Source: Acidobacteriota bacterium (GTDB taxonomy: Bacteria > Acidobacteriota > Blastocatellia > UBA7656). Taken from it: 62,947 nucleotides of DNA. Below the pieces are notes generated by a model. That model was not told where the DNA came from and made no database searches. It worked only from the letters and a program-made list of their open reading frames with translations. Below are positions 1-9,655 of this stretch, in pieces. The stretch is taken from NCBI GenBank assembly GCA_016201275.1, contig JACQDB010000003.1, positions 1 to 62,947 on the forward strand, given 5' to 3'. Numbering within the stretch: position 1 is the stretch's first letter; each line of letters begins with the position of its first letter. The position numbers were made by a program, and so were the translations under genes.

Positions 1-269
1 CAATCCCCCCGATGGCAGTTGGGGGATAGTTAAAGTCCAGCCTTGAGCATCGGGCAAGGCTGGACTTTAACTATCCCCCGACTACCATCGGGGGGATTCG
101 TTGATCGGTGGCAGCGTTTCGTAGGCTGGACTTTAACTATCCCCCAACTGCCGTTGGGGGGATTCGTTGATCTTTGACAGCGTTTTGTAGGTTGGACTTT
201 AACTATCCCCCAACTGCCGTTGGGGGGATTGGCAGGTTGGTTCACCTCTGAAAAATGTACCAAGTCGAG
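1..269. repeat. Hairpin-repeat array 1 (cut by window edge)
   Basis: Four copies of a roughly 42-44 bp unit lie at 2-43 (reverse), 57-98, 121-164 and 187-230. Each unit has a stretch ending GGACTTTAAC followed by a C-rich/G-rich palindrome ending in GGGGGGATT. The linkers between units 2, 3 and 4 also resemble each other. After the last unit comes a conserved boundary that ends TGTACCAAGTCGAG (256-269). It matches, with one mismatch, the terminal inverted repeat of the element at 8229-8832. The left end is outside the window. An ORF can be read through the repeats but its protein is only the repeat translated, so I do not call a gene. Confidence 0.85.
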
Positions 270-3091: not shown

Positions 3092-3190
3092 TTATTTGTT
3101 CTTGGTTACTGGTTACGGGTTATTGGTTATTCGAAATTTGCAAGCAACCAAGAACCAGTAACCAAGAACCAGTAACCAAGAACAAATAAC
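3091..3190. repeat. Inverted repeat with internal tandem units between DUF1800 and DUF1501 genes
   Basis: A perfect 24-bp inverted repeat (3091-3114 with 3167-3190) encloses shorter direct copies of CCAAGAACCAGTAA. Transcribed, it would make a long AU-rich stem with a 52-base loop between two operon genes, so it may tune mRNA stability or coupling. No T-run follows, so it does not look like a classical terminator. Confidence 0.75.
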
Positions 3191-7991: not shown

Positions 7992-8228
7992 AATAGTGAT
8001 CCTCGAAAATGCCTTCAGGGGGAATGATGCTATCAAACTATGGGAGCAGATTGACAAATACCCTGTGTCGGCAAGCTATCAAAGTATATTCTTGAAGTCA
8101 ATAATTAAATTCTGTGAGAGGTCGGCGCAAGGGTTAGTCGCCAGCACCTTCAGGCTTCGGCAATCAAGCATACCGCCCCGCTGCATATCGCTAACCATTG
8201 AGGGAAAAGCCCAGAAAAAGGTAGTTAG

Positions 8229-8832
8229 CTCGACTTTGTACATTTTTCAGATGCGAACCGAGCTTGCCAATCCCCCGATGGCAGTCGGGGGATAGTTAAA
8301 GCCCAACCTACGAAACATCGCACAACCTCAACGAATCCCCCCAACGATAGTTGGGGGATAGTTAAAGTCCAGCCTACGAAACGTCGCCAAAGATAAACGA
8401 ATCCCCCCAACTGCCGTTGGGGGGATTGAAAAAAGTTTTGCTTGCTGGGTGTGTAGGTTGGACTTTAAGCATCCCCCGATTTCCATCGGGGGGATTGCAA
8501 AAAAACTTTGCTTGCTGGGTGTGTAGGTTGGACTTTAAGCATCCCCCGATTTCCATCGGGGGGATTGCAAAAAAACTTTGCTTGCTGGGTGTGTAGGTGG
8601 GACTTTAACCATCCCCCAACTGCCGTTGGGGGGATTCAGACGAATGGCCTCACCGCCTCGGCTCTCCGTTGGTAGTTTTTTCAGCGGCGAAGCAGCCTGA
8701 TTTCATTGGCTTTTTCAACCTCTGGAAATATTGAACCTCACCTCAACAAGCTGAGGTTCAATATTTCCAAGCGCGAACCGCAACGTCAGCGCTTGATTGG
8801 TGTGGTTCAATTTGAAATTGTACAAAGTCGAG
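8229..8832. mobile_element. 604-bp hairpin-array element with perfect 14-bp terminal inverted repeats
   Basis: The sequence CTCGACTTTGTACA (8229-8242) is repeated exactly, inverted, at 8819-8832. Between them lie six copies of the same hairpin unit as in array 1: 8269-8311 and 8334-8377 reverse, 8400-8427 partial, 8453-8496, 8523-8566 and 8593-8636. There is also a perfect 17-bp stem at 8724-8740/8752-8768. The segment next to the left TIR (CATTTTTCAG, then GGTTC/GAACC) also occurs at the right boundary of array 1. TTAG stands directly outside the left end and one base outside the right end, hinting at a target duplication. No protein gene is inside, so movement would need a transposase supplied from elsewhere. 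Confidence 0.6.
8453..8636 (+). repeat. 70-bp tandem repeat inside the hairpin-array element
   Basis: Three successive hairpin units start at 8453, 8523 and 8593, exactly 70 bp apart. They share an identical linker containing ACTTTGCTTGCTGGGTGT. The first two units are identical and the third differs in the palindrome. This points to recent tandem amplification. Confidence 0.85.
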
Positions 8833-8834
8833 AT

Positions 8835-8933
8835 TAGAGCGTGTCGCAGAATCCCAACAACCCATATGTTGTAGACGATTAAACCATCACCTACTATATC
8901 TGGACAGAAAATCCGTTTCTGCGACGCGCTCTA
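8835..8933 (-). mobile_element. MITE family A, copy 1
   Basis: A roughly 95-bp element begins GAGCGTGTCGCA and ends TGCGACGCGCTC, with TA at both outer edges. In reverse orientation it aligns along its whole length with the copies at 12400-12501 and 57915-58016, including an internal TCCAGATAT and an ATATGGG. The TA borders fit a Tc1/mariner/IS630-type target duplication. It sits two bases from the right end of the hairpin-array element. Confidence 0.75.
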
Positions 8934-9655
8934 GGTACAGAAAAAGTCCACTTTTTTCTGCCTGCGTGTTGCTTGCTAGGGCATCTTCCGGCCTTCTGTT
9001 TACACTGCTGAAATGCCCCCGACTTGGTTACGCAACGATTTCACGAGGTCAGGATTGTTCTTGACTTTTTACCCGTGCCGATATATTTTCGCGTGGCATT
9101 TTCGTTGTTCTTTCATATATCCATACTCTGGCGCGGCAGCCATTCTGTTTTTGATGCGCCGGAGCAAAGCTTCGCTTTATTATCCGGGCGATTGGTGGCA
9201 TAGCGAGAGATCAAGCTCAAGAAGAATGGATTCGCTATCTCGCCCCACTCGTTGCGTTCGCTCTATGCAAGATATGATCGCGGCTTTTTACGCTGAATGA
9301 TTCTCGCTTGCGCCCATTCGACAGTGGACAACATCACGATGACGACCTGCACAAGGTGCGCCGCCAAGGCAACCACCACGCTCACGTTGGTCTATTCCGT
9401 AGAGGTCAGCACCGCAGGCGGCAGGCGCATTTTTAACGAAGTCAAGGCGGTAGCGTTAGCGTAACTATCAAGGAGGCGGTGTTACACCATAGGACTAGCT
9501 CGGCCAAGTTGATCGTTGCGGAAAACGTGGCGGCTTATGGATTGACGAATGCTCAGGATTCATATTAACTGATGGCGACCGACGGACTTTTACAGAGTCA
9601 CAAAATTAGACAATCACTACTTTACCGTATAGGAAAAATGAAAAGGAGATCGAAT
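8934..9655. other. Intergenic stretch, no gene recognised
   Basis: I see only a small hairpin (CAGAAAAA/TTTTTTCTG near 8938-8960) and short ORFs without ribosome sites or recognisable composition. The part 9340-9470 can be read as a 42-residue peptide, but nothing supports it. It may be degraded coding or repeat DNA. Confidence 0.5.

Follow-up and report, generated by a model that had tools for sequence, protein, structure and literature searches.

Descriptions exist of REPs and REPtrons, of IS701 elements and of MITEs, among them one with tandem repeats in its interior (PMC6006769, PMC3733652, PMC4596501). The IS701 family includes ISAba11 (PMC8472584), for which a 5-bp target duplication has been reported (PMC7885321). 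An expandable tandem-repeat interior is known from the BrickBuilt MITE of Porphyromonas gingivalis, in which a 23-nt repeat is present in 19 copies in one strain; its abstract mentions neither REP units nor a Y1 transposase tied to the repeat (PMC4596501). REPs, also in the form of BIMEs and REPINs, are made of a GTAG foot and a palindromic stem-loop and occur in high copy number as inverted pairs or clusters, and in a REPtron the cognate hairpins lie on either side of a Y1 gene (PMC6006769, PMC3733652). Cases in which a REP dimer sits within another palindrome have been reported as well (PMC3733652). As to the enzymes, TnpA_REP of E. coli appears to be monomeric, and the working form of IS200 transposases is a dimer (PMC6006769). 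The TnpA_Y1 class 3 of Quentin et al. (2018), which stands between insertion sequence and REPtron, is found in Acidobacteria and Planctomycetes with many hairpins around its gene; it is a single-domain protein of ~178 aa with a CnGA foot and a Y motif that, in the printed consensus, has Q at position +5 (PMC6006769).

The locus analysed here brings several of these systems together. We consider it very likely that, as a whole, it is explained by a REP array from a REPtron-like locus lying inside an IS701-type MITE that was amplified by DDE transposition, with a pseudo-dimeric Y1 enzyme behind the hairpins. The window, which is the whole analysed stretch of 62,947 nucleotides, is contig C38 of the organism's own assembly (G000), a 6.84-Mb draft in 162 contigs. 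At 8229-8832 it holds an element bounded by an exact pair of inverted repeats, CTCGACTTTGTACA at 8229..8242 on the plus strand and its partner at 8819..8832 on the minus strand, and the complementarity of the two ends extends to 18 nt at 94%. Directly outside lie GTTAG (8224..8228) and ATTAG (8833..8837), a target-site duplication that agrees at 4 of its 5 bases. Six REP-like hairpin units are enclosed: units 1 (8269..8293, CTAC foot towards 8311) and 2 (8334..8359) in reverse orientation on the minus strand, unit 3 (8400..8427) with a perfect 12-bp stem at the orientation switch, and units 4 (8453..8496), 5 (8523..8566) and 6 (8593..8636) on the plus strand, each composed of a foot (GTAGGTTGGACTTTAAGC in unit 4) and a hairpin (8471-8496, 8541-8566 and 8611-8636, respectively). 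The first two units are spaced by 66 bp and the last four by 70 bp. As single-stranded DNA each of the six folds better than nearly all of its shuffles (z from -2.7 to -6.1). A seventh, 47-nt hairpin at 8723-8769 (z -10) differs in sequence from the REP unit and forms part of the constant right-hand section of the element (8637..8818, plus strand), which is common to most full copies. With up to two mismatches, CTCGACTTTGTACA has four matches in the window against 0.31 expected, a number that 0 of 100 shuffles reached. The bordered hairpin array is a real feature, and the original prediction of six units, partly in a 70-bp tandem, between exact 14-bp inverted repeats is confirmed.

Other repeats are found in its neighbourhood. 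A palindromic repeat of ~100 bp (AGAGCGTGTCGCAGAA ... TTCTGCGACGCGCTCT, window 8833-8935) abuts the right end of the element, with further copies beside one MITE (L020) and inside another (L038), and a long hairpin of CTTGGTTACTGG-type repeats lies between two genes at 3095-3186. Rfam searches returned only sub-threshold, miRNA-like matches, both for this long hairpin and for the hairpins in general.

The start of the window, 1..269, is a second copy of the element on the minus strand, with hairpin units at 2-27, 73-98, 139-164 and 205-230 and an end, CTCGACTTGGTACA, at 256-269. The same unit and a border with one mismatch to CTCGACTTTGTACA had been recognised here at the outset, and both observations hold; the border had however been taken for the same right boundary, whereas its sequence continues as CTCGACTTGGTACATTTTTCAGAGGTGAACC, the left end of the copy at 8229, so that this array is an inverted copy truncated by the contig end.

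Genome-wide, CTCGACTTTGTACA ends with at most one mismatch number 88 and 87 on the two strands (175 in total), compared with none in a reversed-letter control. They pair in plus-minus order at distances of 360-710 bp, which corresponds to ~90 element copies in the 6.84-Mb draft. Many of the listed ends lie less than 450 bases from a contig start, so that it is the element itself that breaks the assembly. One pairing in L021 proved false and was left out; among 30 distinct copies whose flanks are both readable, exact 5-bp target duplications are present in 18 and duplications with one mismatch in seven, the commonest being CTTAG and CTAAG (CTWAG type). The search for empty sites that had been proposed with the original prediction yielded one, a paralogous site in which the joined flanks of the copy at C80:85664 match contig C10 of the same assembly (L083:3976-4169) at 86% over 195 bp. 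This site has a single copy of the target and is located inside another repeat; the repeat that carries it is the palindromic one also present at 8833-8935 of the window. The element is short and multicopy, has terminal inverted repeats, target-site duplications and one empty site, and contains no transposase gene, all as in a MITE. What had been proposed as a mobile, non-autonomous element with paired ends is thereby borne out by the 175 ends and by the duplications in 18 of 30 copies, and the idea of an expandable hairpin cargo agrees with the stem count per copy, which by a strict pattern varies from 2 to 6. Among the copies, L037 1057-1514 has another palindromic repeat (GTCAGTAGCCCGACCGTGAGGGAGGGC ...) nested inside. 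Two unit arrays of the same genome, L025 10964-11230 and L017 12202-12500, have no clear terminal repeat; the units of the former follow a 68-bp period, with a degenerate end-like AAACTTTGTACAGGCGAAC.

The ends point to the IS701 family. The sole IS701 transposase in the assembly (G000:C135; NF049999 289.6 bits; PF13546, DDE_5, 103 bits) lies in an element of 1330 bp with CTCGACTTTATCCA ends and CTTAG duplications, and these ends differ from CTCGACTTTGTACA at 2 of 14 positions. Homologs occur in 13 of 162 genomes of the class, mostly with the same ends as the C135 element and CTWAG flanks. In genome G113, one transposase-bearing piece (L102) starts with an exact CTCGACTTTGTACA after CTAAG and another (L097) ends in CTCGACTTTGTACG followed by CTAAG; over its terminal 18 bp the right end of the window element is identical to the L102 end, at 18 of 18 positions. 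As in IS701-family elements and their MITEs, the terminal repeats are those of transposase-bearing copies, the duplication is 5 bp long and the related transposase is of the DDE_5 type. Unlike in these, only the ends match: the interior is a REP array unrelated to a transposase gene, and beyond the ends the window element has no resemblance to these insertion sequences. Since ends and target both match IS701-family elements, the border is best read as that of an IS701-type MITE, probably moved in trans by an IS701-family enzyme. The acting family is assigned by this likeness because a transposase with exact CTCGACTTTGTACA ends was not found in this draft, which may lack multicopy elements; a transposase ending in the same repeat, which the original prediction had suggested looking for, was thus found in G113, although not with exact ends in the genome itself. 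No matching pairs of ends were found around the remaining DDE_Tnp_1 genes of the genome (L064, L065, L067). The gap in the draft, together with the many copies at contig ends, where a multicopy insertion sequence could have been lost, would leave room for a DDE element from outside the IS701 family that is missing from the assembly but shares these ends and has a similar target; we judge this quite improbable, considering that the transposase-bearing IS701 piece of G113 has the identical end and a CTAAG flank. In another family of the class, an independent MITE of ~177 bp with CTCGACTTTGTCCA ends was observed in G011 (L068 3994-4170, L069, L070, L071), with the 5-bp duplications ACGGA, TTGAA, TTCAA and ATTAG.

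The hairpin unit, GTAGGYTGGACTTTAANCATCCCCC-AACTGCCGTT-GGGGGGATT, consists of a GTAG foot, a linker of ~15 nt and a C-run/G-run stem with a 4-nt loop, and in the MITE such units are arranged in two blocks of opposite orientation. The 5' GTAG foot, the palindromic stem-loop, the high copy number and the inverted pairs or clusters are those of REPs, while the length of the linker is unusual. Over 493 kb of this genome, almost every unit is located within or beside CTCGACTTTGTACA-type ends, and in the genome array and borders are copied together, as had been proposed; they do not always travel together, as ten other genomes of the class carry the unit without these ends. The possibility that the unit is private to the element with terminal repeats was rejected on the same grounds. 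That the arrays of the other genomes lie inside IS701 MITEs was likewise rejected for the loci read, in which a search for the ends gave no paired ends. The hairpins are REP-like units separate from the borders and appear to belong to a second mobile system.

The two arms of the stem change together (AAC/GTT, GAT/ATC, GAC/GTC, CCACC/GGTGG), and stem pairing is 0.74 compared with 0.59 in shuffled sequences (shuffle maximum 0.61). Such covariation, and the position of the window copy between larger ORFs, would fit an array kept for a function in the host, with mobility being secondary; transcription termination, mRNA stabilisation and the binding of gyrase or IHF are known roles of other REPs (PMC6006769). 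Yet ~90 dispersed copies with duplications and a variable number of units look like the outcome of transposition, and correction of palindromes during replication can likewise produce covarying stems. We therefore regard a primary host function as unlikely, whereas some selection by the host on the hairpins is possible.

The counterpart of the hairpins is found at a Y1 transposase locus of the same genome. The assembly has eight Y1 matches at seven loci, of which only the one with a tandem gene (L140) has units, on both sides and in inverted orientation; no unit was found in the fetched flanks (up to ~1.5 kb) of the other Y1 genes or fragments (L137, L138, L139, L142, L143 and L144). The product of the tandem gene is a protein of ~277 aa with two IS200-type Y1 domains, and two loci that had been fetched from other genomes by their hairpin (G147, G005) encode the same protein at 57-59% identity. 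A protein search detected it in 8 of 162 genomes of the class, and in the genome collection 15 loci were found, which come from Pyrinomonadaceae, other Blastocatellia, a Terriglobia bin, gp4 Acidobacteria, Planctomycetes and a Myxococcales bin. All 12 loci examined (L140 and 11 others) have hairpin arrays around the gene, mutually inverted on the two sides, although in one of them (L187) the downstream side alone is long enough to judge; as in a REPtron, the Y1 gene is flanked by cognate hairpins. In four loci (L165, L180, L183, L184) the gene ends in a TAG stop codon that at the same time forms the TAG in the GTAGG foot of the nearest hairpin downstream. Over 113 bp, the upstream array of the genome's own tandem gene shares 94% identity with the MITE arrays, compared with at most 85% with arrays elsewhere, which indicates that the MITE array is of the same stock as this locus.

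This kinship of the hairpins also speaks for a one-element reading: the fused enzyme would recognise the hairpins and move the whole unit bounded by the 14-bp repeats, much as the original prediction had envisaged in a hairpin-recognising enzyme. Y1 (IS200/REP) transposition is not known to make target duplications, and the exact 5-bp duplications in 18 of the 30 copies already contradict such a reading. Moreover, the ends and the target match IS701 elements, the borders and CTWAG duplications being of the IS701-family DDE type; the tandem Y1 locus has no CTCGACTTTGTACA-type ends within the fetched DNA, and the units of other genomes lack them as well. A single Y1-driven element therefore has hardly any probability left.

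The two-system reading, a REP array nested in an IS701-type MITE, allows a history to be proposed. A REP array from the REPtron-like Y1 locus would have entered a MITE on whose ends an IS701-family DDE transposase acts in trans, generating a 5-bp duplication, usually CTWAG, and the MITE would then have been multiplied by DDE transposition to ~90 copies. The number of units may have shifted by slippage, by recombination or through the nicking of lagging-strand hairpins by the Y1 enzyme. Whereas this order of events is inferred, the ends, duplications, copy number, single empty site and separability of units and ends can be read directly from the sequences, as can the units around the fused gene and the complementary conservation of its catalytic residues. 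If the reading is correct, one repeat is the substrate of two unrelated transposition systems, and REP arrays carried inside a MITE would have a concrete route to about a hundred genomic sites without an enzyme of their own.

More surprising than the nesting is the tandem, half-site enzyme. Y122, Q126, H207 and H209 are invariant in 11 homologs that are 21-55% identical to the first. Y122 and Q126, both in the N-terminal half, correspond in the alignment to Tyr and Gln of IS608 TnpA; the HUH motif of that half (HIH in IS608 TnpA) is lost, its position reading HLR, QFR, NLR and similar. Conversely, the C-terminal half keeps its HUH motif, and in most homologs its Tyr position is occupied by F or W; in L186 (G022) it is Y, and the assignment is less certain in L188 and the distant L190-L192. 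In IS608 TnpA the HUH and Tyr active sites are reported to be shared between subunits (Ronning et al. 2005, cited in PMC8266576). Given this sharing and the complementary conservation of the residues, the fused pseudo-dimer would most simply have one composite active site per chain, with Tyr and the metal-binding Gln from the N-terminal and HUH from the C-terminal domain, and a second, dead site.

The protein is thus close to, yet distinct from, the described Y1 transposases. It scores 146.6 bits with the IS200 TnpA profile and 57.5 bits with that of the REP tyrosine transposase, below the cut-off of 80, and hence differs from the TnpA_REP (RAYT) of REPtrons in its IS200-like score as well as in the fusion of two domains whose losses of catalytic residues complement each other; the ~15-nt linker between foot and stem also sets its hairpins apart. 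An IS200/IS605 TnpA is a single domain with HUH and Tyr that forms a homodimer (IS608, ISDra2), whereas here both domains are in one chain and one catalytic set has been lost. With TnpA_Y1 class 3 it shares the occurrence in Acidobacteria and Planctomycetes, the numerous hairpins near the gene and the intermediate place between insertion sequence and REPtron, but it has two domains rather than one, ~277 aa, a GTAG foot and Q at +4. Unexpectedly long proteins were excluded from the study of Quentin et al. (PMC6006769), so the tandem enzyme may have been seen and dropped. In the literature searched, no fused or tandem Y1 transposase was found, and neither was the nesting at ~90 copies nor a complementary-half Y1 transposase tied to this unit; the original view that no described family has this design is partly wrong, since tandem-repeat MITEs such as BrickBuilt and REPtrons have both been described. 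On balance, it seems probable that this rare Y1 family of Acidobacteria, Planctomycetes and relatives is an obligate single-chain pseudo-dimer with one composite active site that spreads GTAG-footed hairpins, which in one genome have hitch-hiked in an IS701 MITE to ~90 sites. A natural fused dimer of this kind, with one dead and one composite site as inferred and kept across distant phyla, would make the roles of the active sites directly testable without engineering. The AlphaFold model of the tandem protein is confident (pLDDT 87.8, pTM 0.85) and matches the structures of ISDra2 and IS608 TnpA with Z about 12, in line with the fold of the two halves being that of the IS200/IS605 dimers.
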